Below the pieces are notes generated by a model. That model saw nothing but the letters and a program-made list of their open reading frames with translations. It was not told the DNA's origin and ran no database searches. From NCBI GenBank assembly GCA_014804615.1, contig JAAUZL010000024.1, positions 197,963 through 255,363 of the forward strand: a stretch of 57,401 bases of DNA, read 5' to 3'. This DNA is from Lachnospiraceae bacterium (GTDB taxonomy: Bacteria; Bacillota; Clostridia; Lachnospirales; Lachnospiraceae). Below, piece by piece: positions 39,172-52,865 of this stretch (position 1 is its first letter; every line of letters starts with the position of its first letter). The translations under genes were made by a program, and so were the position numbers.

Positions 39172-40326
39172 CTATACATTTTTATCATTTTCCAACTCCC
39201 CTATGATCCTCTCTATCTGTCCATAATAATTTCCAAACTGAAAATTATCCTTCACATGCTGATAAGCCGCAGCGCCCATTTTCATGAGATTGTCCTTATC
39301 AGATATGATTTTCTCCATCTTCTCTTTCAAGTCTTCTTTATTCTTATCTTCAAATATATACCCTGTTATTCCATTCTTGATATAATTTGCGGTCCCGTTA
39401 TCACTGCCGCTGATAGCAGGAATAGAAAATGCCATAGCCTCCAAATGGGAAACGGCCGCCGGCTCGTCGGTGCTTGGAAGCACAAAAACATCTGCTCTTT
39501 TATACTCCTTTTCCACAGCATCTCTGTCAAGGTTAGTCAAAAGACTAACGGCACCTTCCAGCTTATGTTCCTTCACATAGCTGCTCACTTTCCGATAGTA
39601 TTCCTCATGGAAACGGTTCGACATCTCTCCTGCGATCACAAGGTGCAGGCGATATTTCGGAAGCAGCTCCTCTACGGCTTCTATCATCATCTGCAGATTT
39701 TTCCGTTTCTGATATTTCCCAATGCAAAAAACATTAATGTACTCATCCGCAAAATATATCTTTTCTTCGGGCCTCACTTGTGGTTCCATCAAAAAAGGCG
39801 CCAGATATGCGGTCTCATCCCGCACCAGACCGCTGTAGTCTGTTCCTACGACATCTACCGGCGTAATACGGTACTTGGGCGTCAACTTCCAGACCAATTT
39901 GTGCGCTCTATTCATTACCGTGGGTTTCTCCCATACAGGAGTCTGATTATAGAGGATCGCTGGTATTTTGTAGTGCTTACAAATTGCATTCATACAAATC
40001 GTATACATGGAACGTTCTCTTAAAATGGCCACATCAGGTCGAAAAGCTTTGATATATTTTGCCAGTTTTACCATTGGTGGAATACCATATTTTAGCTTCA
40101 TGTCCGCAGCCACAGGGTCATTCTTTTTCAGAACCTTAACGTACAGATGATCAAACACTTTAAAAATTCCGGAATATCCTATCACATCAGGTTTTACACA
40201 TGTGTAATCTTCCACTTTTCCGGCATACTGGCTTATGATCCGGACTTCATGTCCGTTTTCCTTCCAGCCTTTCATGATGGTTGTCTGATTCGTATGATAT
40301 CTATGAGACATATATAAAACTTTCAT
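39172..40326 (-). CDS. GT-B glycosyltransferase, family 4
   Basis: A 384-residue GT4 enzyme. It begins KVLYMSHRYHTNQTTIMKGW; the C-domain has VFCIGKYQKRKNLQMMIEAV, LVIAGEMSNRF and EX7E as EPAAVSHLE, with AMAFSIPAISGSDNG after it. It is typical of capsule synthesis enzymes. It follows the GT-D gene with a 13-bp gap and precedes the GT-C-like gene by 21 bp, all one strand. GAGG lies 11 bases before the ATG. Sugar unknown. Confidence 0.9.
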   Translation of the reverse strand: MKVLYMSHRYHTNQTTIMKGWKENGHEVRIISQYAGKVEDYTCVKPDVIGYSGIFKVFDHLYVKVLKKNDPVAADMKLKYGIPPMVKLAKYIKAFRPDVAILRERSMYTICMNAICKHYKIPAILYNQTPVWEKPTVMNRAHKLVWKLTPKYRITPVDVVGTDYSGLVRDETAYLAPFLMEPQVRPEEKIYFADEYINVFCIGKYQKRKNLQMMIEAVEELLPKYRLHLVIAGEMSNRFHEEYYRKVSSYVKEHKLEGAVSLLTNLDRDAVEKEYKRADVFVLPSTDEPAAVSHLEAMAFSIPAISGSDNGTANYIKNGITGYIFEDKNKEDLKEKMEKIISDKDNLMKMGAAAYQHVKDNFQFGNYYGQIERIIGELENDKNV

Positions 40327-40339
40327 ATGTCATGAAACC

Positions 40340-41203
40340 TCATATCCTCTTTTTTATCTGGGCAAGATATTCATGATATCCTGCATTTTTATTTGCCTCT
40401 TCTCCGATTACATCATGTTTTGGCACCTTTTCTTTCTGCTTTGCCTGATGAAGATACCATTCATATTCCATATCAAGATTTCCGATGTCAAGCGCTCTGT
40501 AACCTTCCAGGAAAAGTTTCTCCACCAGAAATTTGGCTGCGACTCCCAGGGAAACCAAAAACAACCTGTCCTTCGGATACTTTTTACAACATGTAAATAG
40601 TTCATCCAGCCTTTTATAGGCATCGCTGCTCGGTCCAATGATCCTCTCTATGCTTCTTGCACTGTCTAATAAATCATTACCTACACCATTATGTGTCCTC
40701 TCTCCTTCTACGACAACGATATCTTTATCTTTCCAGATCTCCCTTATCTTCTCTGCCTGTTGTCCGCACACGCTTTTATCTTCCAGAGCATAGTAGAATC
40801 TGGAAACGGAAGTATTGTAATATTCTCTGGTCGGATTACAGTATTTTTCATAGATCTTTCGGGAAAAAAGCAAATGGTCTTTCCAAAATTGTCTGCTTTC
40901 TTTCCGGTAAATGGACAAATCATCAAATATTTCGGGGATTGTAACTAGCATGTTCTCATGTTCATACGCTAGCAGTCTTTTCAGACCATCAATAATCTCC
41001 GGTTCCACCTGCTGCAATTTGAGACTTCTTCCCCGAATCATCGTAACTTCTCCGTCACCGAATCTTATCATGCTCTTATCTGTGTGAATTAGTTCGTCTA
41101 TTGTTTCCTCAACACTGTATACCACAATGGGGCATTTTTTTAACCCTGTCCGGTAAAACAGATAATCAATCTGTGCGAGAATGTCCTTTATCAGTCTTTT
41201 CAT
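40340..41203 (-). CDS. GT-D fold glycosyltransferase (DUF1792 / SP_1767-like)
   Basis: A 287-residue protein. The signature is MIRFGDGEVTMIRG around residue 45, the D-x-E metal site of the GT-D fold first described in a streptococcal adhesin-glycosylating enzyme. Further support: QQAEKIREIWKDKDIVVVEGE, SARSIERIIGPSSDAY and LFLVSLGVAAKFLVEKL, all typical of this family. The streptococcal enzyme extends a glycan on a serine-rich protein; other members sit in capsule loci. The start lies 38 bp inside the upstream ABC transporter gene and has AGAGGA 8 bases before it. Confidence 0.9.
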   Translation of the reverse strand: MKRLIKDILAQIDYLFYRTGLKKCPIVVYSVEETIDELIHTDKSMIRFGDGEVTMIRGRSLKLQQVEPEIIDGLKRLLAYEHENMLVTIPEIFDDLSIYRKESRQFWKDHLLFSRKIYEKYCNPTREYYNTSVSRFYYALEDKSVCGQQAEKIREIWKDKDIVVVEGERTHNGVGNDLLDSARSIERIIGPSSDAYKRLDELFTCCKKYPKDRLFLVSLGVAAKFLVEKLFLEGYRALDIGNLDMEYEWYLHQAKQKEKVPKHDVIGEEANKNAGYHEYLAQIKKRI

Positions 41204-42950
41204 TCAACACATCCTCTTTCTTCCTAATCTCTACTTTTCCATTTCCGACCTCATAGATCACATCGGCATTTTGTATCGTCGTCAACCTGTGCGCAATAAT
41301 AATCATAGTCTTTTCACCATGCAGATTTTCTATCGCTTCCATGACGGCTGTCTCTGTATCATTATCAAGGGCCGACGTTGCTTCGTCAAGAATAAGAATC
41401 TCCGGGTCATGATAAAGCGCTCTTGCAATACCGATACGCTGTCTTTGCCCTCCGGATAATCTGACACCCCTGTCACCCACAAAAGTATCCAATCCTCCCG
41501 ACAGGCTGATAACAAAGTCATATAACTGCGCCTGACGCAAAGCATTGATGACTGCCTGTTCATCAATTTCCTTTTCATCAATACCAAAGGCTACGTTATT
41601 GCGGATCGTATCATCTGATAAATAAATTGTCTGTGGTATATAACCAATTTCTTTCTGCCAAGTAGATAAATTCTTATATACATTCATGCCATCAGCATAG
41701 ATTTCCCCATTCTGCGGCTTTAAAAGCCCCAATAAAATATCCGCCATAGTAGACTTTCCTGCTCCTGACGCCCCAATAAAAGCCACAGTCTGCCCTTTTT
41801 TGATGGCATAGTCGGCATGCTCTATCACATTCGTTTCCCCATCAGGGTAATGATATGTTACATTTTTTACTTCAATTTTTTCCATCAGCTTCCATGCTTC
41901 ATCTTTATTCTGTGTCTCTGCCTCCACGGCACCGCTCAGATTCTCTACTTCCCGTAAATCTTTATAAATCAGCTCAAGCGACGGCATCGCATACAATACT
42001 GCTGATAAATGCTCATTGATTCTGCCGACAGAAGGCAGCAGTCTGAATGACGCTACCGCAAATACCGCAAGCTGCGGAACAAAATCAATCAAATCCTTTT
42101 GTCCGAAAAAGATTTTAAAAATAATCGCTAAAAGCAACCCTGTCATACTGACCATTTCAATAATATACTTCGGTACGACTCCAATCAACCGGTTCAGGCG
42201 AAGCACTCTGACATATTTTGCGAAATAATAGTCATAGTGCTTAATAAAGCTCTCTTCTCTGTTTAAAACCTTAATTTCCTTAATGCCGCCTAAAGACTGA
42301 TTCATCCACTGATAGATTTTGGATTTATGCTGCTGCCCTTCTCTGCCCCATGCACTGGAATATTTTTTAGATATTAGAGAAAAAAACGCTAAACAAAGAA
42401 CAAGCAGTCCTGCAATAATAATAGTAATGGAATGGCTCACAATATAAAGATAAATACCAATGGCAATGCAGACACATATTTCGGCTATCATTTCCATAAG
42501 GTGAATAATCCCTTTTGCGAACTGGTCCGTATCTTCCTGCATACTTCTCTGTAGTACGGAAATATTGTTATTTAAGTGAAATGTATACGGTTCATTCATA
42601 TATGCTTTTAACAAATCCGTTGAAATCGTCCTCTGGATCCGATAGGAAAATTTATAAATTGCATTCTTTTCCACGATTGTATAAACATCTTTTACAACAT
42701 AGATAACAATAATTCCGCCTGCAAGAAGCGCCAGAAAATATTCTATGCTTTGAAAAGAAAAAAGATCATAAATAAATGCGATTGTACTGCTTTTGTCTAT
42801 TGTAGCCGGATCCATGATTAAGTCGATGAACGGTGAAAAAATAGACACTGCCAGCAATTCTAAAAAACTTCCGATGATCACAGCTATCATCAGAAATACT
42901 ATTTTGATCTTATCCGCTTTCGTAAAAATATAGTTTAACTTATGAAACAT
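41166..42950 (-). CDS. ABC transporter, fused membrane and ATPase domains (flippase-like)
   Basis: A 594-residue half-transporter, a paralogue of the one at 25694-27496 (both start with MFH and share ATSALD, DDTIRNNVAFG and the layout of the C-terminal coil). Walker A is GASGAGKST, signature LSGGQRQRIGIARAL, Walker B ILILDEATSALD, switch HRLTT. The membrane domain covers residues 1-320. Likely role is flipping a lipid-linked oligosaccharide outwards. It lies between a GT-C-like gene and the GT-D gene in the right-hand operon. AGGA precedes the ATG by 7 bases. Confidence 0.9.
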   Translation of the reverse strand: MFHKLNYIFTKADKIKIVFLMIAVIIGSFLELLAVSIFSPFIDLIMDPATIDKSSTIAFIYDLFSFQSIEYFLALLAGGIIVIYVVKDVYTIVEKNAIYKFSYRIQRTISTDLLKAYMNEPYTFHLNNNISVLQRSMQEDTDQFAKGIIHLMEMIAEICVCIAIGIYLYIVSHSITIIIAGLLVLCLAFFSLISKKYSSAWGREGQQHKSKIYQWMNQSLGGIKEIKVLNREESFIKHYDYYFAKYVRVLRLNRLIGVVPKYIIEMVSMTGLLLAIIFKIFFGQKDLIDFVPQLAVFAVASFRLLPSVGRINEHLSAVLYAMPSLELIYKDLREVENLSGAVEAETQNKDEAWKLMEKIEVKNVTYHYPDGETNVIEHADYAIKKGQTVAFIGASGAGKSTMADILLGLLKPQNGEIYADGMNVYKNLSTWQKEIGYIPQTIYLSDDTIRNNVAFGIDEKEIDEQAVINALRQAQLYDFVISLSGGLDTFVGDRGVRLSGGQRQRIGIARALYHDPEILILDEATSALDNDTETAVMEAIENLHGEKTMIIIAHRLTTIQNADVIYEVGNGKVEIRKKEDVLNEKTDKGHSRTD

Positions 42951-42964
42951 CTCTTCGTCCTTCC

Positions 42965-44704
42965 TTATTGCTCCGGCAGCGCATCCTCTTCATTCACCGT
43001 TTCCTGTGTATATGTATCAAATGCTCCTGTATTTTCATTCCGCGCAATCATTTTGGCAAACGGCTCCGTATAAGAACCAACACAGACTAACACTGTAATG
43101 ATGAATCCAACGGCCAGTTTTCTCTTCAAGCACTTTCCTGCCTCCGTCTCCCATCCATTCTCCATAATCTCACGCTTACTGTCACAAAGCCATTTCTTCC
43201 ATTCCCCATATCCGCATATGCTTAAAGGAAGCAGCAGAGGAAAATACAAAATAGCATACAAGCCTTCCGCTTCCCAAAATATATGGAACACAAATCCGCC
43301 AATAAACGTAATGGGCAGAATGATTTCTTCCAGACTGCTTGTCTTATAACGGAACAACGCATACATAAATGTTCCTGCCAAAATCCAAGTGTGCAGCAAA
43401 TTAACAAACAGAATATACAAATATCGTCCATTTCCCTGCAGAAGCCAATCGAGCCCATTCGCTCCTTCTCGTTTTTCCAATATCCATAAGGATTGAAATG
43501 TCGGGTTATTCCACTGAGACGATACTTTTTTAACAAAAAAGCTGATAGTTGTCGTAATATCCTGCGGATACTTCGTCACGATCCGCTTTATCTCCTCTTT
43601 TACCGCTGCCTGTGTCTTATCATAATCATAATCATTTTCTATATAGACACCGTTATTATATCCATTATACCATCCCGGAGCCCCTTTGCCATCCTGTAAT
43701 CCCATCGCCACCCATGCAAGCATCGGAATGCCTTTTACTTCATTTCCATCATTTAGCCTAGTAATATACGCATTCACACCGCATCTGCCTGCCAGAAAAC
43801 AAAAAAGAAGCACAGCGACCAGAAGAAGTCTGGGCATGTTTTTCTTTAAATTTGTAATCTTATCAGATATACAGCCAAGCAGCAGATAAATGATCTCCGC
43901 TATCATAAAAATCATATAATTAGATTTTACAACAGTCGCAATCCCCATACTTAATCCGCTAATCAACAGCCAAAGCAGTTTTCTCTGCCGCTCATATAGA
44001 AGCATGGTATAGAAAGATAATAGGGCAAACGCCATGCCGACTACCGTTCCATAGAGGAATGTAACATACAGCAGATAGGGCAGAAACAGCAGGCAAAGAA
44101 CCGCAGTTCCTGTCTCATACCCCTTCTCCTTTTCCCATAAAAGACCGGCAATTTTCATAAAAAGCCACACAGTGAGAACAATCCAGACGGCATTCACAAT
44201 TTCAAACGCTACATAATTCAGATTGCCAAACAAAAGCGATAATAATTGATAGTACAAAATGACGCCCATCTGAAAAGGAAAAACAAATAAATAATTTCCC
44301 ACGGCAAAATCGGAATGATCATGTTCATTTAACGCGGCCGCCGCTTCTATAACATGTTTTTGGTCAAATTTGGGATAGTACTGTCCCGCCGCCACAATCA
44401 GCACAGATAGCACGCCGACAGCAATACATATAACAAATCCAAAATATTTTTTTTCAAAAATTCTCTGCCAGCCTTTCCACCGAAAGAAAAGAAGCAGACC
44501 GGAAAAAGCGAGAAACAACACAATATGCTGCAGATAGGCGTCTCTGATATAAAAAGTATGCTCTACATTGGTTTCCGCGGCTCCCGATGCAGTCATATAT
44601 TGATATTCGCCCAGATAGCATGTACTGAAAATGCTTGCTGTAAGCAGATATCCGATCGTTACGATAAACAGCAGCCATACTGCTCTTTTTATCCACTTTA
44701 CCAT
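42965..44704 (-). CDS. Polytopic membrane protein, GT39/GT-C-like
   Basis: A 579-residue protein with about 12 membrane segments, including a typical core LLWLLISGLSMGIATVVKSNYMIF that resembles GT39/PMT-like and ArnT-like integral transferases. The outer loop after the third or fourth segment has YYPKFDQKHVIEAAAALN and HDHSDFAVGNYLFVFPFQ, acidic and histidine rich as in GT-C enzymes. I chose ATG 44704, which shares a base with the upstream stop (TAATG); the longer frame adds a hydrophilic tail without support. It probably transfers a sugar from a polyprenyl carrier on the outer face. Confidence 0.72.
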   Translation of the reverse strand: MVKWIKRAVWLLFIVTIGYLLTASIFSTCYLGEYQYMTASGAAETNVEHTFYIRDAYLQHIVLFLAFSGLLLFFRWKGWQRIFEKKYFGFVICIAVGVLSVLIVAAGQYYPKFDQKHVIEAAAALNEHDHSDFAVGNYLFVFPFQMGVILYYQLLSLLFGNLNYVAFEIVNAVWIVLTVWLFMKIAGLLWEKEKGYETGTAVLCLLFLPYLLYVTFLYGTVVGMAFALLSFYTMLLYERQRKLLWLLISGLSMGIATVVKSNYMIFMIAEIIYLLLGCISDKITNLKKNMPRLLLVAVLLFCFLAGRCGVNAYITRLNDGNEVKGIPMLAWVAMGLQDGKGAPGWYNGYNNGVYIENDYDYDKTQAAVKEEIKRIVTKYPQDITTTISFFVKKVSSQWNNPTFQSLWILEKREGANGLDWLLQGNGRYLYILFVNLLHTWILAGTFMYALFRYKTSSLEEIILPITFIGGFVFHIFWEAEGLYAILYFPLLLPLSICGYGEWKKWLCDSKREIMENGWETEAGKCLKRKLAVGFIITVLVCVGSYTEPFAKMIARNENTGAFDTYTQETVNEEDALPEQ

Positions 44705-45771
44705 TACATTTTCGTCCTTTCTATGCCTATCCGGATTCTCTCCGTCTGCACTCTTCTTTTTCCGAACAGATACATCACATAGGAAACAATAAGCGTCCCG
44801 CATAAAACAAAACCAAAGAATCGCAGGCCATAGTCATGATGCTCCTCAATCAATGTCCTATAAACAAATTTGAAAATCATATGAACAAAATAAATATTGA
44901 TACTCATCTTTCTTAAAAATACCGTATCTGCCTTTACAGTAAGAGACAGCGCAAACAGTATCAGAAAAAAAACTACCGGAAGCAGCATCAAGTACATATC
45001 CTGCTCTCTCACCGCTCCTATCTTTTGCAAATAAGACACTTCCACAGTAAAGAGCACAATTGATGCGCTCAACCCCAAAAAAGCAGCAAACGTTTTTACT
45101 TTTATATTACATCGGGCAATCCACATTCCCATATAAAGAAAGATGCTGCCAAAAAAAATACCGTTTCTGCAAGTAACCATAGCCATCTTTACCAGTTTCA
45201 TGAACTTCCATAACAAACCATCCACGGGAACGATTTTTAAAAGCAGTCCGAAATATGACTGTGTAAGAAGCCCCATACAAAACAGGATAAACAATATAAT
45301 GATGCATCCCCGCTCACCTGCATATTTTCTAAGTACATACACGATAACAAGTCCCACCGCTGTTGCCGGCAGATACCACAGCTGTGCATAAGAACCGGTA
45401 AAAAAGAAATCCCTGACTATCGCAAATACATCATATACCAACGATGTATCGGAAACAATAATTTTTTCATATATAATGATCGGCAGATAAACAACCGTCC
45501 AGATACAATACAGAATCAACAATTTTCTGATATAAGGAGCAATAATCTCTCTTTTCTCTTTCTGCTGCCCAATCTGTTTTTCCAGCAAGAATCCGGTCGC
45601 TGCAAAGAAAAAGGGAACGGATACTCTTCCCATAATATCGGTCGTCAAAAAGCTGAGTGTATCATTGACATCGACAAAAGGATGTGTATGTAACACCACT
45701 ATAAACAGCGCCATTATGAACTTCATTACATCAATGCCCTGATAGCAGACTTTGTTTTCAGTCTTTTCCAA
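44704..45771 (-). CDS. Acyltransferase-3 family membrane protein
   Basis: A 355-residue protein with about ten membrane segments and the family start GIDVMKFIMALFIVVLHTHPF, containing the conserved His, then RVSVPFFFAATGFLLEKQ. The start codon is TTG (45769-45771), with AGGAG ten bases before it, located in a 35-bp sequence shared with the start region of the next acyltransferase. It should acylate a sugar at the membrane. It ends in a TAATG junction with the GT39-like gene. Both neighbours upstream and this one begin with the residues MEKT. Confidence 0.9.
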   Translation of the reverse strand: MEKTENKVCYQGIDVMKFIMALFIVVLHTHPFVDVNDTLSFLTTDIMGRVSVPFFFAATGFLLEKQIGQQKEKREIIAPYIRKLLILYCIWTVVYLPIIIYEKIIVSDTSLVYDVFAIVRDFFFTGSYAQLWYLPATAVGLVIVYVLRKYAGERGCIIILFILFCMGLLTQSYFGLLLKIVPVDGLLWKFMKLVKMAMVTCRNGIFFGSIFLYMGMWIARCNIKVKTFAAFLGLSASIVLFTVEVSYLQKIGAVREQDMYLMLLPVVFFLILFALSLTVKADTVFLRKMSINIYFVHMIFKFVYRTLIEEHHDYGLRFFGFVLCGTLIVSYVMYLFGKRRVQTERIRIGIERTKM

Positions 45772-45817
45772 TCAACTTATTCTCCTTCAGACCATACTTT
45801 CCATCCTTAACAGATTT
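45758..45817 (-). pseudogene. Ghost of a radical-SAM gene 3' end
   Basis: In a frame different from both acyltransferase genes, this stretch reads KSVKDGKYGLKENKLI, then GKD and TGA. It closely matches the C-terminus of the radical SAM protein encoded upstream (KFLKGGKYSLKENKFI). The similarity is too long to be chance and marks a duplication or cassette-exchange joint. Confidence 0.7.
45774..45808. repeat. 35-bp direct repeat, copy A
   Basis: Thirty of 35 bases are identical to 46842-46876. It starts with AACTTATTCTCCTTCA and, on the minus strand, includes the AAGGAGAATAAGTT ribosome binding site of the acyltransferase that starts at 45771. It overlaps the end of the upstream acyltransferase gene. 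Confidence 0.85.
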
Positions 45818-46833
45818 TGCTGATATTTCTGATACAATTTCTTCTCTATAGGCAATAATACCCTGATGATGACTGCTGCCATAACTGCTGCATATAAGAT
45901 TGCAGGTAAAGCGCCTGTTATTTCTATCTGCATTCCCAGAACCGAAGCCGCTGCCTCCAATATCTTCTTAACTACCATTTCATTCCCACACAGCCAAAGC
46001 GTCTGAGTTCCGGCGTAGGCTAATGGACGAAAACCCTCTAAAATTTTTGCCAGAATCAGATTTAAAAATATAATTAACATTGCCCGTACCACTGCATATA
46101 TCATATGAAATCCCGGAATTGTCCGATTCAGGATACTCCCGATGATATCTTCCTGGAGGTACACAGACACAACATATCCCGCCAAAAGCGCTGTTCCAAT
46201 AATCCAAAATATCGCTGCCTTTTTATCCGTCCCCTGTTTCCAGTTCATCAGTCTCAACAACTTCGTGTGCAGGACACAGCCTAATGCATAATAAATCAAA
46301 TAATAACATGCTGAATCAATGTTCCATATCCAGGATGGCTGCATACTCGGATCGTTCGGAAAAAGCGTAATAGAAATAAAATATAGCGCCGCAGACGCAA
46401 GCAATATCAAGATATTTTTCTTCAAGAGTCTTCGCAATATTTCAAAAAGTACCCCTGCACAAAAAATACAGGAAAAGAACCATAAGGACGATGATGGTAT
46501 CTGATTCCTGATCCCAAAAATAAATTGTTTTATATACTTCAGATAAGTAATAAAATCTTTATCTGATGTTGCAATTATCACTACCATATTAATAACGGTC
46601 AAATAGATATAAGGAATCATAATCTGTCCGAAACGTTTCTTAACTGCATCTTTAAAACTCAGATTTTTTAAATTATCTGCAAAAATACCAGACGCAAAAA
46701 AGAAAAGCGGCACATGATAATAAAATACAAAACCATGGAGTTTTCCGGTCCCTTCACCCAGATGTCCGCAAAAGATTGCAATAATACCCAATATTTTTAA
46801 AATATCAACCCATTCTACTCTTGTTTTCTCCAT
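45787..46833 (-). CDS. Acyltransferase-3 family membrane protein
   Basis: A 348-residue protein with about ten membrane segments. It begins EWVDILKILGIIAIFCGHLGEGTG, with the conserved His, followed by FYYHVPLFFFASGIFADNL, a typical second-helix motif. It starts right after the radical SAM gene and ends with LLRMESMV, whose codons overlap the ghost of a second radical-SAM C-terminus read in another frame. So its 3' end was probably made by recombination. The catalytic core is intact. Substrate unknown; an O-acetylase is the usual role. Confidence 0.88.
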   Translation of the reverse strand: MEKTRVEWVDILKILGIIAIFCGHLGEGTGKLHGFVFYYHVPLFFFASGIFADNLKNLSFKDAVKKRFGQIMIPYIYLTVINMVVIIATSDKDFITYLKYIKQFIFGIRNQIPSSSLWFFSCIFCAGVLFEILRRLLKKNILILLASAALYFISITLFPNDPSMQPSWIWNIDSACYYLIYYALGCVLHTKLLRLMNWKQGTDKKAAIFWIIGTALLAGYVVSVYLQEDIIGSILNRTIPGFHMIYAVVRAMLIIFLNLILAKILEGFRPLAYAGTQTLWLCGNEMVVKKILEAAASVLGMQIEITGALPAILYAAVMAAVIIRVLLPIEKKLYQKYQQNLLRMESMV

Positions 46834-46834
46834 C

Positions 46835-47833
46835 TTATATAAACTTATTCTCCTTCAAACTATACTTCCCGCCCTTCAGGAACTTATGTTTCACAACCCA
46901 CCATCCGGGCACCCAGATATATTTATGCATCGCAGGAGACGCACTGCCTATCATCCAGCAATTCCTGTCGCAGTTTTTCGTACACGCTCTGACTTCCTGC
47001 GCCTGCTTGGAATTCCACAGCTCGTCCCAGTTTTGATTGCGCAGATTTCCCATAACAGCCTTTTTCTCCATGCCGTTGCAGGGAATTACATCGCAGAACG
47101 GGTCGATAAAAAAAGCGTCCTTGGACATATCACAGGGCAGAAGCCTCTTATTGCCATAAATATAATTGATCAGCCCATGATTAAAGTAGGCACGGAACCA
47201 CTTCTTGGGGGATCCGCTCTTCAAAAGCTCGTTGATCAGCTTCTCAAAGTTCTGTGCAACCTTGTATTTATCATCGATCTTATTGTCCGTCTTTCTGAAA
47301 TAAAAGGAATTATGCAGTGTCGCCGTTGCAAATTCCATGCCCATATCATTAGCGATATTATAAAGCGGCACCAGATCTTCACAGTTCATATCCTGCACCG
47401 TCATGCCAAATCCCACATCCGGGTGTCCCATCTCCACCAGAGTCTTCAAGGTCTTATACCCTCTGTTAAATCCATCGGGGATTCCCCTGATCTTATCGTT
47501 CGTCTCCTGCAGTCCCTCGATGCTGATACGGATTCCCACTTTCGGAAACTCCTTACACAGTGCGATGATCCTGTCCGTAAAATACCCGTTTGTAGAAATG
47601 ACAATCCTGTCAGATTTTTTATATAATTCCCGCACGATATCGGGAATATCCTGTCTGATAAAAGGCTCTCCGCCGGTAATGTTAGTAAACGCCATCTCAG
47701 GCAGCTTCTTGATATCCTCCAGCGTGATCTCCTCATCCGGCCTGGTCGGATCCTTAAAGCAGTCACACATGTTGCATCTGGCGTTACACCTGTATGTCAC
47801 AATGACAGTGCCGTATAATGTTCTTCTTGCCAT
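46835..47833 (-). CDS. Radical SAM / SPASM-like protein
   Basis: A 332-residue enzyme. The cluster motif is C16-x3-C20-x2-C23 in YRCNARCNMCDC; then come NITGGEPFIRQD and RISIEGLQETNDKIRG, all standard radical SAM elements. The C-terminal part has cysteines at CDMSKD, CDVIPCNG, CTKNCDRNC, fitting a SPASM-type auxiliary cluster region. Such proteins occur in some polysaccharide loci with unknown substrates; others modify peptides. It lies between a GT4 (3-base gap) and an acyltransferase. AAGGAG precedes the ATG by 9 bases. A copy of its 3' end persists 1 kb downstream. Confidence 0.88.
   Translation of the reverse strand: MARRTLYGTVIVTYRCNARCNMCDCFKDPTRPDEEITLEDIKKLPEMAFTNITGGEPFIRQDIPDIVRELYKKSDRIVISTNGYFTDRIIALCKEFPKVGIRISIEGLQETNDKIRGIPDGFNRGYKTLKTLVEMGHPDVGFGMTVQDMNCEDLVPLYNIANDMGMEFATATLHNSFYFRKTDNKIDDKYKVAQNFEKLINELLKSGSPKKWFRAYFNHGLINYIYGNKRLLPCDMSKDAFFIDPFCDVIPCNGMEKKAVMGNLRNQNWDELWNSKQAQEVRACTKNCDRNCWMIGSASPAMHKYIWVPGWWVVKHKFLKGGKYSLKENKFI
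46842..46876. repeat. 35-bp direct repeat, copy B
   Basis: This is the copy within the 3' end of the intact radical SAM gene; it encodes KYSLKENK and holds the ribosome binding site of the acyltransferase that starts at 46833. It differs from copy A at five positions. Confidence 0.85.
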
Positions 47834-47835
47834 GT

Positions 47836-49047
47836 TCAGCGCTCCTTATATACATTCCTCACTATTTTATCACAGTATTCCTCTATTGTGTCAAAATTTA
47901 TCTTCTTGCAGTTTTCCCGATAGGCTTCACACACCTCCGGGTGCTCCCAGAGTTCCCTGATATGTTCTGTCAATTCCTCCGCATCGCCGCCGCGGAACAA
48001 ATCTCCTGTCACGCCGGCCTGCACCAGTTCCGGCGCACCTCCCAGATCGGATACAAGCACGGGGGTGCCGTACATCTGCGACTCCATCACAGAAAACGGG
48101 CCGTTCTCATACCATTCGGAAGGATATACACTAAATCGTGCCTCCGCAATCAGCTTACGCAGCGCCTCTCCTGTCACAAAGCCGCGATTTTCCACATTGG
48201 GCACCCTGTTAACTTCCTCTTCCAGAGGCCCTGTCCCGGCAAAAACAAAAGGGATCTCCGACAATGCCCTGCATGCTTCCAACAAAGTTCTGGTGCCTTT
48301 TTCTACCGAAAACCGTCCGAAATAGACTACATAATCTTTTTTGGTGTTACTATTTTGCCCGCTGTCATGCTTCTCAATAAAATTGCGCATCATGACCGTC
48401 TTGTCCGCCAAAAGAGGATTGGTATCCAGCTGCTTTTTCATAAACTCGCTGGGACACAGGATAACGTCTACCATACCGTAGGTCTTGCGTCCGGCATAAT
48501 ATTCAGCCTCGATCGTCCCAAGCAGACTCTTCACACGCGAATTGTGAATACAGCGGTTTTTGCTGCACTGCTTGTAATCCCCTCCACGACAGGCAAAACA
48601 GATCTCTCCGCTTGCCGGGATCCGCATCATATGATTGGGACATACCCACTGATAATCGTGCGCCGTATATACGATCCGCACGTGTCTGCCACATTTTCGC
48701 TCGTATGCCTTGACCGCATAGATCACCGACGGTGTCAGTTGAAAATTAATATTGTTTAAATGCACTACATCCGGCTGAAAATCCTCCAGCACAAGGCACA
48801 TTTTCTTCTTAGCCTCCGCGGAATAGATAATGCGGAAGGGATAGAACAGTTTTTTAAGTCCGCCGGCGTGAAAATCCATATCCGACGTATATATTTCCGC
48901 ATGATTTCCCACACTCCGCCCTTCATGCTCCATGCCGAAATACTGCACTTCATGCCCCATTCTCTGTAACTGTTCACCCAATTTGAAAATATAAGTCTCC
49001 GATCCGCCGTTGGGATGCAGAAATTTATTTACCATTAAAATCTTCAT
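47836..49047 (-). CDS. GT-B glycosyltransferase, family 4
   Basis: A 403-residue GT4 enzyme. Start 49047 has GGGAG 7 bases upstream and gives the proper opening KILMVNKFLHPNGGSETYIF. A cysteine-rich insert (HMMRIPASGEICFACRGG, then KQCSKNRCIHNS) may hold zinc. The C-domain has VVYFGRFSVEKGTRTLLEAC, FAGTGPLEEEV and EX7E as ENGPFSVME, then SQMYGTPVLVSDLGGAPE. It lies 4 bp after the CotH gene and 2 bp before the radical SAM gene in the right-hand operon. Donor unknown. Confidence 0.91.
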   Translation of the reverse strand: MKILMVNKFLHPNGGSETYIFKLGEQLQRMGHEVQYFGMEHEGRSVGNHAEIYTSDMDFHAGGLKKLFYPFRIIYSAEAKKKMCLVLEDFQPDVVHLNNINFQLTPSVIYAVKAYERKCGRHVRIVYTAHDYQWVCPNHMMRIPASGEICFACRGGDYKQCSKNRCIHNSRVKSLLGTIEAEYYAGRKTYGMVDVILCPSEFMKKQLDTNPLLADKTVMMRNFIEKHDSGQNSNTKKDYVVYFGRFSVEKGTRTLLEACRALSEIPFVFAGTGPLEEEVNRVPNVENRGFVTGEALRKLIAEARFSVYPSEWYENGPFSVMESQMYGTPVLVSDLGGAPELVQAGVTGDLFRGGDAEELTEHIRELWEHPEVCEAYRENCKKINFDTIEEYCDKIVRNVYKER

Positions 49048-49051
49048 CGTC

Positions 49052-50917
49052 CTACTCCCACTTCCCATTGTACACTTCCATATCCTCATAGACAGGAATA
49101 TAACTGTTTGCACGCTCGCCGGTACGTTTTACGACCCAGCCCTGATACACACTCTCGTCATAATCCGGCGTATAGGGAATAGGCTCTCCGTCCATAACCT
49201 CTATCGTTTCCACCACGCCCTCCTTGACTGCAAAGGTAAGCTGATGCGTTTCCCCGCCCGCGGGTGCAGCAAAGGCTTCATGGTCTATGCCCCACCTTTC
49301 GCACAGGTAATTCAACCGATTTGCCAGGAAATACTTCATGTAACTGACATTCGCGTCATAATCCATATATCTTGGCATCCCATCGTCCGGTCCCCATGTT
49401 TCTTCCCAGCGAATACCATCCATCTTAACAGAAGCCTGAATACGGTTTGCATATTCATCAATTCTACTATTCAAAAGCTCTTCAAAAAAAGGAAGCAACC
49501 GTGCGTATTCTTCCGCCACACACCTCTGCATCTCCGGAGTTTCGTATAATCTCTGATACCAATCAATGACGTAAGCAACCCTTTCATTGTTATGTATAAT
49601 GGTTTCAGTATAATCAGTAAACGCTGTTGCCCCCGCCTCTCCAAAAGCACGGTCGTAATCCCACACAGGACCGGAATACAGCAAATCATCTCCTCTGTCT
49701 TTGTAAAAAAACATACTGGTAAGACCGGCATCTGCCTCCAATGAAATCTCATCCACTAAAAATCGTTTTACAAAACTGTCAAGATCCAGATACTGCCAAA
49801 CTCCGGAATCACTGTTCTGCACCAGTCTGTCAATCTCTTCCACATAAGTCTGAATATAATCTATTTGCTCTCTGGAAGCATGTTTAGGCTCCTTAATCGT
49901 AAAATTTGCTTCGGAAGGCAGGACAAATCCGCACGCCTCCCCCTTCCAGTGTGACGGATAATCCTTCTCGATTAGGTAACCGCCGCTTATATCCGTTCCA
50001 TTCTCTAATTCATATCCTTTGCTGTTTTCCTCCTCATAATGCACCGCCACTCCCTCTGCGATAAGAGCATTTCTGCTCTTATTCTCTTTTTCCAGGTCAT
50101 AAATGTCGATGCGCCCCTCTCCCACTGTCACAGACTCCGCCAGCATATAAATTCCACTGTACTCTCCGTTCAGATACAGATCGATCCAGGTTCCCTGTGC
50201 CGTATAGGAAATTCCCAACGCATCCGCCATGTCCATGGCTATTTTATTGTCCATCTTGCTACTCTCACGCCATAATGCCATAAGCTGCCACCTATCGCTT
50301 CGATCCAGCCCCAGAAGCGGCATTGTATCTTGCAACTTGATAGCGTAAGGCTTTTTCTCATATGGCCAAGTGGTGTTCCCTCTTCCGGATATCCATGATA
50401 ATTCTCCCTGATATTCAGTATTTCCATCTTCTCTGACGATACACATATCTCCTGTTTCTCTGTTCTGCTTATCCTCGTTGAGATATTCCATGCTCCCGCT
50501 TGCGGTACTGATGAAAACCGCCGGAATATTCGCTGATTTCATAAAGGTGATACTATATTCATGTTTCTCATAGTCATCGCCTATAATCTCCATTTGATAG
50601 ACATGATCATCCTCCCACACAAAACGATCCCCTCTCTCAAATAACTGTCCGTCAATCCATACTCTGCTATTACCACAATCCCTCAATTTAATTCTATGGT
50701 GATTCACACAAGAAGGAAGAAAAAAATAGTCTTTTCCCCCTTCTTCACTCTGCCACAGCATAATCGTGTTTTCACTTTGTGCCATACGAATACTGATACA
50801 GGGTGTTTTGTCCACTATCTGCAAAAAAACGGTGTTTGTTCTCAAAAAACACAGATATCCCAGTGTCACTATAGTCATCATTGCCAGTATAATACCCATA
50901 TAGGCTCTTTTGCACAT
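49052..50917 (-). CDS. CotH-family kinase-like protein, secreted or membrane-anchored
   Basis: A 621-residue protein. An N-terminal membrane segment (MGIILAMMTIVTLGYLCF) exports it; the start at 50917 follows GGGAGG. After about 130 residues, a CotH domain spans roughly 140-480: ISGRGNTTW with KKPYAIKL (nucleotide-binding side), SSKMDNKIAMDMADALG, LNGEYSGIYMLAESV, and GPVWDYDRAFG with the probable catalytic Asp. Bacillus CotH phosphorylates spore coat proteins. Extracellular relatives in clostridia are linked with VTC and DUF4956 genes, which here lie 32 kb away in the same window. What it phosphorylates, if anything, is unknown. Confidence 0.87.
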   Translation of the reverse strand: MCKRAYMGIILAMMTIVTLGYLCFLRTNTVFLQIVDKTPCISIRMAQSENTIMLWQSEEGGKDYFFLPSCVNHHRIKLRDCGNSRVWIDGQLFERGDRFVWEDDHVYQMEIIGDDYEKHEYSITFMKSANIPAVFISTASGSMEYLNEDKQNRETGDMCIVREDGNTEYQGELSWISGRGNTTWPYEKKPYAIKLQDTMPLLGLDRSDRWQLMALWRESSKMDNKIAMDMADALGISYTAQGTWIDLYLNGEYSGIYMLAESVTVGEGRIDIYDLEKENKSRNALIAEGVAVHYEEENSKGYELENGTDISGGYLIEKDYPSHWKGEACGFVLPSEANFTIKEPKHASREQIDYIQTYVEEIDRLVQNSDSGVWQYLDLDSFVKRFLVDEISLEADAGLTSMFFYKDRGDDLLYSGPVWDYDRAFGEAGATAFTDYTETIIHNNERVAYVIDWYQRLYETPEMQRCVAEEYARLLPFFEELLNSRIDEYANRIQASVKMDGIRWEETWGPDDGMPRYMDYDANVSYMKYFLANRLNYLCERWGIDHEAFAAPAGGETHQLTFAVKEGVVETIEVMDGEPIPYTPDYDESVYQGWVVKRTGERANSYIPVYEDMEVYNGKWE

Positions 50918-50921
50918 CCCC

Positions 50922-52865
50922 CTACCTCCCTTTGGGGTCTCTTCCCTCATATAGCGCCAGCGTCTCTCTCACCACTTCATCCCAGTTATATTTACCGCAG
51001 ATATAATCCGCACTGTATTTTCTGTACTCATCAACAACTTCCGAATGCGCCAGCATATATTCCAGCTGCCTTCTTAAATCCTGCACATCCCCCTTGCGGA
51101 ATATGAGGGCCTTATCCTCAACGACCTCCGTATTTTCACAGATATCGCTGACAAGACAGCAGTTCCCATAACTCATCGCTTCCAACAGAGTGAGCGCCAT
51201 CCCTTCTACATCGCTGGGAAGTATGAAGGCATACGCATTAGAATATAATTCCTCCAATGCCTGTCCCTGCACAAAATCCGTCATAATGATACGCTCATCC
51301 TGCGCTACCATCCGATGGATCTGATCCATATATTCCACCGCATGGCTGTTGCCCCCGGCGATCACAAGCTTCTTATCCGTATCAATCTTCGCAAACGCCT
51401 CGATCAGATAATGCACTCCCTTCTCCGGCACGATCCGTCCGAGTGACAGGAAATAACCGTCTTTCGTCAACCCGTACTTCTCCGTGATCATCTGTGCTTT
51501 CTTCGGTTCCGGCTTATCGATACCGTTGGGAATATAAATGGTTTCCCTATTGTAAATATCCGCAAAATACTGCTGCACATTTTTGGACAAAACGATCACT
51601 TCGTCGGCATATTTCGCCGCCATCTTTTCGCCCAGTTTAATGAAATAGGAAGCAAAGTTTCCCCATTTTGCCCTCTGCCAGTCCAGCCCATGAACGGTCA
51701 CTATTATTTTCTTATGAAAAAGTTTCGGAAGCCATACCATGACACTGGGACCTTCCGCGTGAAAATGTATCACATCATATCTGCCAAACATCGCCCGCAG
51801 CGTCGCAAAAAAGCTGTAAACGACAGCGTTTAAGCTGCTTGTCCGAAACGTGGGTATAATATATACCCGAACTCCTTTATAAAACTTTCTGCCCTTCCAG
51901 CCATACTCCTGCTCATATTTCTTCCCGGAAACATGATGACCGTACCGGTTATACGCATCCACATGATGTCCCATCGCCGCCATACGCACAGCCAGTTCTT
52001 CCACTACGATCTCTACCCCGCCTTCCCTGGAGGGTATTCTCTTGTGCCCGATCATCGCGATGCGCAGACCACCTTTTCCGCCCTTTCTGCTCTGTCCGCT
52101 CCTTTGTTCTGTTCTCAATTTCTTATTCTCTTTGTGGACATGGTACAGAAAAGAGAAATTCGTGTTCAAATAGCGAGGCAGCATGCGCTTAGGATTCCGC
52201 AAAATGCGGAACACCCACTCCAGACAGAGCTTCTGCATCCACATGGGCGCCCGTTTTGTGGTGCCTGCCGTAAAGTCAAAAGCCGCTCCCACGCCCAGCA
52301 TCAGGGCATGGATTTTATGGCGGTGCTCATACATCCACCACTCCTGCTTGGGGGCACCCAGCGCCACCCATACAAAATCAGCGCCGCTCTCATTGATACG
52401 GCGGATGATCTCCTCATCCTCCTGTTTCGTCAGCTCCCGGAACGGCGGCGAATACATACCCGCGATCTGAAGCGCCGGATAGCGCCTGTGAAGCACCGAC
52501 TCCAACTCCGACAGTGTAGACTCCGTGCTGCCGTAAAAGTAATGACGGTATCCCATCTTTTGCGACAGATCGAGAATGGCCGGCATCAGATCCGGCCCCG
52601 GCACCCGCTTCGCCTGCGAAAATCCCCTTTTTCTGCTGACGATAGACAGGGGCTGCCCATCCGGCAAAGCCATAGCAGCACTGTTCTGTACTCTGCGGTA
52701 TGCTTTATCCCGGTATGCCATCACCGTGGTGTGCACGTTGGAGACACAGATATAGTCCCCCTTAAGCTGATCCAGGTGCTCTGTGATATAGGAAATGGTG
52801 TCCTCCATGTTAGTCACATTGATGTTGGTTCCTAATATTTTACAGTATTCCAGCTCGTTTTTCAT
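50922..52865 (-). CDS. WecG/TagA-type (GT26) glycosyltransferase fused to a GT4 domain
   Basis: A 647-residue two-domain enzyme in one continuous frame. Residues 1-240 are GT26: ALPDGQPLSIV, RVPGPDLM, YFYGSTES, WVALGAPKQEWWM, and FDFTAGTTKRAPMWMQKL. This family adds a ManNAc-like sugar to undecaprenyl-linked GlcNAc. After a basic linker (HKENKKLRTEQRSGQSRKGG), residues 265-647 form a GT4 domain (IAMIGHKRIPSREGGVEIVV, VIHFHAEGPS, FLSLGRIVPEKGVHYLIEAF, EX7E as EGMALTLLE). Both sites look intact, so one protein may add two successive sugars. It follows the Wzy-like gene by 19 bp. Confidence 0.9.
   Translation of the reverse strand: MKNELEYCKILGTNINVTNMEDTISYITEHLDQLKGDYICVSNVHTTVMAYRDKAYRRVQNSAAMALPDGQPLSIVSRKRGFSQAKRVPGPDLMPAILDLSQKMGYRHYFYGSTESTLSELESVLHRRYPALQIAGMYSPPFRELTKQEDEEIIRRINESGADFVWVALGAPKQEWWMYEHRHKIHALMLGVGAAFDFTAGTTKRAPMWMQKLCLEWVFRILRNPKRMLPRYLNTNFSFLYHVHKENKKLRTEQRSGQSRKGGKGGLRIAMIGHKRIPSREGGVEIVVEELAVRMAAMGHHVDAYNRYGHHVSGKKYEQEYGWKGRKFYKGVRVYIIPTFRTSSLNAVVYSFFATLRAMFGRYDVIHFHAEGPSVMVWLPKLFHKKIIVTVHGLDWQRAKWGNFASYFIKLGEKMAAKYADEVIVLSKNVQQYFADIYNRETIYIPNGIDKPEPKKAQMITEKYGLTKDGYFLSLGRIVPEKGVHYLIEAFAKIDTDKKLVIAGGNSHAVEYMDQIHRMVAQDERIIMTDFVQGQALEELYSNAYAFILPSDVEGMALTLLEAMSYGNCCLVSDICENTEVVEDKALIFRKGDVQDLRRQLEYMLAHSEVVDEYRKYSADYICGKYNWDEVVRETLALYEGRDPKGR

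Follow-up and report, generated by a model that had tools for sequence, protein, structure and literature searches.

A relic of a radical SAM gene 3′ end at the junction of two acyltransferase genes in a Lachnospiraceae surface-sugar cluster, a probable scar of single-gene gain

Introduction

Capsule loci of various bacteria are variable regions with conserved flanks. The same layout is found at the O-antigen locus of Salmonella, which lies between galF and gnd (PMC3715488). Salmonella O-antigen clusters contain remnants of wzy and include D2, a recombinant of D1 and E (PMC3715488). Homology-facilitated illegitimate recombination (HFIR), with joins of 3 to 10 bp, is described as documented in transformable bacteria (de Vries and Wackernagel 2002, as cited in PMC6382021).

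Here we describe a scar in a surface-sugar cluster of a gut bacterium, located in a 57,401-nucleotide stretch of a Lachnospiraceae genome (GCA_014804615.1, contig JAAUZL010000024.1, positions 197,963 to 255,363), the whole of which is called the window. The scar is a real recombination event of a known, ordinary kind. As with the Salmonella remnants, a polysaccharide locus has been reassorted by recombination and a gene fragment at or near the junction records its history; unlike them, the Lachnospiraceae remnant consists of the terminal codons of a conserved cluster gene, reused as a stop and probably as a ribosome-binding site. The proposed event would resemble HFIR, with the radical SAM/SPASM gene (RS) as the putative long homologous anchor and a putative microhomology join of 3 to 10 bp, but unlike documented HFIR it is deduced from sequence alone. 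As at other conserved-flank loci, a very variable region adjoins a conserved gene, but RS sits inside the cluster, where it marks the start of the variable part, and the first gene behind it belongs to 19 families in 80 loci.

Results

The genes concerned lie on the minus strand within a polysaccharide-type cluster, as do the repeat copies and the features inside them. RS (46835 to 47833) is intact, encodes 332 amino acids with Pfam domains PF04055 and PF13186, and serves as the conserved anchor. Upstream of it is a GT4 glycosyltransferase gene (47836 to 49047), the conserved left flank; downstream are two Acyl_transf_3 (PF01757) acyltransferase genes, ac1 (45787 to 46833) and ac2 (44704 to 45771, with a TTG start). 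These are followed by a GT39-like membrane glycosyltransferase gene (PMT_2; 42965 to 44704) and the cluster backbone, comprising an ABC transporter (41166 to 42950), a GT-D (SP_1767-like) glycosyltransferase (40340 to 41203), and a GT4 glycosyltransferase (39172 to 40326), all assigned by family scans and synteny. At 49052 to 50950 is a gene that its sequence marks as CotH-kinase-like, between a glycosyltransferase gene (50922 to 52865) and the left-flank GT4 gene; none is present at the matching position in L032, L039, L054, or L136, and L086 has three in a row.

The comparison set comprised 77 genomes of the same genus and the 80 closest RS loci. RS or a homologue was found in 73 of the 77 genomes (E ≤ 0.001), a few of them distant. 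Across the 80 loci, RS is 90 to 98% identical, and its tail almost always reads KYSLKENK(F/Y)I or closely resembles it, beyond which both the sequence and the neighboring gene differ. The commonest first gene behind RS is a GT4 gene (39 of 80 loci). In many of the 80 loci (e.g., L035 at 1366), the stop codon of RS overlaps the start of the GT4 gene in TTTATATGA, and near 6984 in L089 the tail reads KYSLKEING-stop, departing from the otherwise conserved KENKFI. A search of the literature for radical SAM genes within capsule clusters of Lachnospiraceae gave nothing relevant.

The present 3′ end of RS (46839 to 46876), where the gene ends in KGGKYSLKENKFI-stop, recurs as a direct repeat at 45771 to 45808, at a spacing of 1,068 nt (3 × 356). 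The repeat, given as 35 bp in the initial annotation, is real and spans 38 nt, 32 of them identical; no other match to this 38-mer in the window exceeds 24/38. Translated in the minus-strand RS frame, the second, lower copy reads KYGLKENKLIGKD-stop (KSVKDGKYGLKENKLIGKD-stop), with the stop at 45758 to 45760, which bears out the claim that a C-terminal RS peptide lies in a silent frame under the 3′ end of an acyltransferase gene. This relic (45758 to 45808, ending GKYGLKENKLIGKD-stop), recognized by repeat comparison and RS tails, is out of frame beneath the end of ac1 and the start of ac2. It is a fragment homologous to RS, whose intact copy is elsewhere.

A profile built from 80 RS tails was searched against the window with RS masked. 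The relic was the sole significant match outside RS (DNA, E = 3.7e-4; protein, E = 0.0027), and the next matches had E values of 5.5 and 1.2, respectively. The degenerate tail motif GGNAARTAYNNNYTNAARGARAAYAAR is matched exactly in many of the 77 genomes, and the relic is the only such match that does not lie at the 3′ end of an RS gene. Mean identity is 27.9/38 between the relic and 82 RS tails and 29.7/38 among the tails themselves, so the relic resembles genuine tails about as closely as they resemble each other. No further relics were found in approximately 110 loci when as many as 4 of 13 residues were allowed to differ. RS fragments in G025, G021, and G061 were considered as further scars and rejected, being located at contig ends.

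The similarity to RS tails ends at AAGGATGGAAAGTA (45808 to 45795), and the codons upstream match little above chance; beyond GGAAAGTA on the upstream side, mean agreement with RS tails drops to 12.8/30, even counting AAGG. In G020 and G021, the ac1 homologues have TTGAGGTTGGAAA and TTGAGGTTAGAAAGTA as their endings, at a nearly equal distance from the conserved KKLYQ, and the codons upstream of AAGGATGGAAAGTA may be the tail of ac1 itself. Given this low identity and these endings, a few of the 16 codons of similarity originally described are probably part of ac1, and that figure overstates the relic.

Downstream, the relic extends through IGKD-stop into the start of ac2. The ac2 start, TTG-GAA-AAG-ACT, lies inside the relic, so that the MEKT of ac2 is the relic in another frame, and the nearest ac2 homologue (in G031) starts MENKVCY. 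MEKT, which had been read as a mark shared by both acyltransferases, is therefore coincidental. The relic also gives ac1 its TGA (45787 to 45789), and an AAGGAG within it (45782 to 45787) lies ten bases before the ac2 TTG. The approximately 50 bases of the relic probably supply the Shine-Dalgarno sequence of ac2, and the relic may show little decay because it supplies the last codons and stop of ac1 and probably this signal.

Relatives with zero, one, and two acyltransferase genes share the same backbone (GT4-RS-...-GT39-ABC-GT-D-GT4). L102 has RS-GT39, L054 (genome G031) has RS-ac2-GT39, and L039 (G057) and L136 (G054) have RS-ac1-ac2-GT39 without the relic. L054 and L102 have the arrangements expected before the proposed event. 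A relative with a single acyltransferase between RS and GT39 had been predicted, and L054, which carries only ac2 on this backbone, is such a relative; nor do all relatives carry both acyltransferases, as would have spoken against the proposal, since L054 has one and L102 none. In L044 (4983 to 6014) and L094 (4969 to 5997), the ac2 family lies directly before RS and not behind it, which means that this anchor has acyltransferase neighbors on both of its sides.

Although both belong to Acyl_transf_3, ac1 and ac2 show no significant pairwise similarity (blastp E = 0.19) and are of separate ancestry; on this value, they were rejected as mutual duplicates and are not recent paralogues from a tandem duplication. 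In the ac2 tree, the window groups with G031, where the order is RS-ac2 (100/100), and G057 groups with G054 (100/98). In the ac1 tree, the window falls with G054 and G057, where the order is RS-ac1 (96/97), apart from loci in which ac1 follows a GT4 gene. Of the original suggestion, a recombination scar and an RS-acyltransferase-GT39 arrangement, seen in L054, are supported; duplication of an acyltransferase is not supported, given the blastp result.

The flanking blocks also differ. To the right of the relic, ac2, ABC, GT-D, and GT4 are 72, 88, 83, and 83% identical to L054 and less similar to L039 and L136. To the left of RS, the window is nearer to L039 and L136 than to L054 and is nearest to L032. 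The relic lies at the seam between blocks of differing affinity. GT39 is an exception (51% to L054 versus 61 to 64% to L039 and L136), and more exchanges therefore occurred.

G036 appears to contain a second, larger RS scar (L127, G036:C11, approximately 84281 to 87095). Approximately 1.36 kb, including a fucosyltransferase-like gene (PF19745) in inverted orientation, separate an intact RS from a remnant of an RS 3′ end, which precedes a further glycosyltransferase-like membrane protein gene. The remnant comprises RS nucleotides 439 to 581 and 682 to 992, which match the intact copy at 97% and 92%; the 100 nt between them are missing. The arrangement points to insertions anchored in RS at other loci too, though this genome is listed with 6% contamination and has another RS copy on contig C145.

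L032 and L004, the two species whose RS genes are nearest to that of the window (92% DNA identity), have tails ending in FIGKN-stop and FIGK-stop. Among the RS tails listed, only these two have the IGK ending; the relic has IGKD-stop, and the intact RS of the window ends in KFI-stop. Of the 39 private differences that set the intact RS apart from both sisters, 8 fall in its last 80 nt (permutation over variable sites, P = 0.012), and the closest relatives of these last 80 bases are mostly loci with KFI-stop tails. The IGK ending, no longer than two to three codons, and the private differences, with their modest P value, suggest with moderate confidence that the relic is the old RS tail of the resident and that the current RS end entered with ac1. 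The initial annotation had the inserted acyltransferase carrying the repeat and its ribosome-binding site; ac1 probably came without the relic, more likely behind an RS 3′ end of its own.

Discussion

The best explanation, which we consider probable, is a scar of single-gene gain in which a fragment with an RS 3′ end and ac1 recombined into an RS-ac2 ancestor through a microhomology join. In the ancestor, RS would have been followed directly by ac2, and the incoming fragment would have carried the 3′ end of another strain's RS together with ac1. Homologous exchange inside RS would have resolved one side; on the other, in the manner of HFIR, a short microhomology (core GGAAAGTA) would have joined the 3′ end of ac1 to the resident RS tail. 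The resulting order would be RS with the 3′ end of the donor, ac1, the relic of the resident tail, and ac2, with the relic then serving both acyltransferase genes as set out above. The probable crossover zone is AAGGATGGAAAGTA (45795 to 45808), which is common to the 3′ end of ac1 and RS tails. Its core occurs in the RS tail of the sister L004, and ac1 homologues have tails ending in TTGAGGTTGGAAA or TTGAGGTTAGAAAGTA, so a similar sequence was probably at hand in ac1. On the anchor side, the private differences are in excess over the last 80 nt of RS, at the modest P value given above. Among the compared loci, none was found to match the junction sequence exactly as a donor would. Two observations stand against single-gene gain as proposed: GT39 does not share the affinity to L054, and the ac1-ac2 order occurs in G054 and G057 without a relic, so that this adjacency would have arisen twice or been re-formed.

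An appreciable but unlikely alternative is the opposite polarity, in which the resident was RS-ac1(-ac2), a block beginning with an RS tail and ac2 from a G031-like donor replaced the region behind ac1, and the relic is the tail of the donor. This would yield the same product, RS-ac1-ac2 is known in G054 and G057, and the right-hand block resembles L054. The IGK ending of the relic, however, fits the window's own RS clade and not G031 (ITKS-stop), and the unusual sequence is in the 3′ end of the intact RS. In-place tandem duplication of the RS 3′ end, or of RS with an acyltransferase, followed by decay of one copy, would account for two copies 1,068 bp apart and has a parallel in G036, where a full RS is followed after approximately 1.36 kb by a 3′ remnant. 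We regard it as improbable: ac1 and ac2 have separate ancestries, the relic ends in IGKD-stop, unlike the intact RS, and the G036 remnant is only 92 to 97% identical to its intact copy.

Very little probability attaches to a maintained switch, in which the repeats would allow deletion and regain of ac1 and so phase variation of the glycan. Both repeats are in the same RS frame and have a 16-nt exact run in common, and deletion would give an intact RS ending in KENKLIGKD-stop and an intact ac2; but no second state was seen, the repeat is short and only 84% identical, and none of the other loci searched has the relic, those with ac1-ac2 included. Least probable of all is chance or convergence around the Shine-Dalgarno sequence AAGGAGAATAAG. 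The longest exact run does contain AAGGAG, but the likeness continues beyond it in both directions and closes with a stop like that of RS, and with the profile matches and a motif unique outside RS in 77 genomes, chance is not a credible account.

Relatives with zero, one, and two acyltransferases, the G036 scar, and the 19 families of first genes would permit a broader reading, which we offer only as a speculation with a small chance of being right: the conserved RS 3′ end could be a recurrent docking site that adds single transferase genes behind RS across the genus, with its AAGGAG tail as a ready ribosome-binding site and the repeat permitting clean loss of the newest gene. For single-gene gain at this locus, the findings bear on how glycan loci are reassorted in gut Lachnospiraceae: a conserved enzyme gene would provide the homologous anchor, a few bases would suffice for the second join, and the gene end left over probably now works as a signal for translation. 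Through their nested arrangements, the relatives make the order of gene gain testable.
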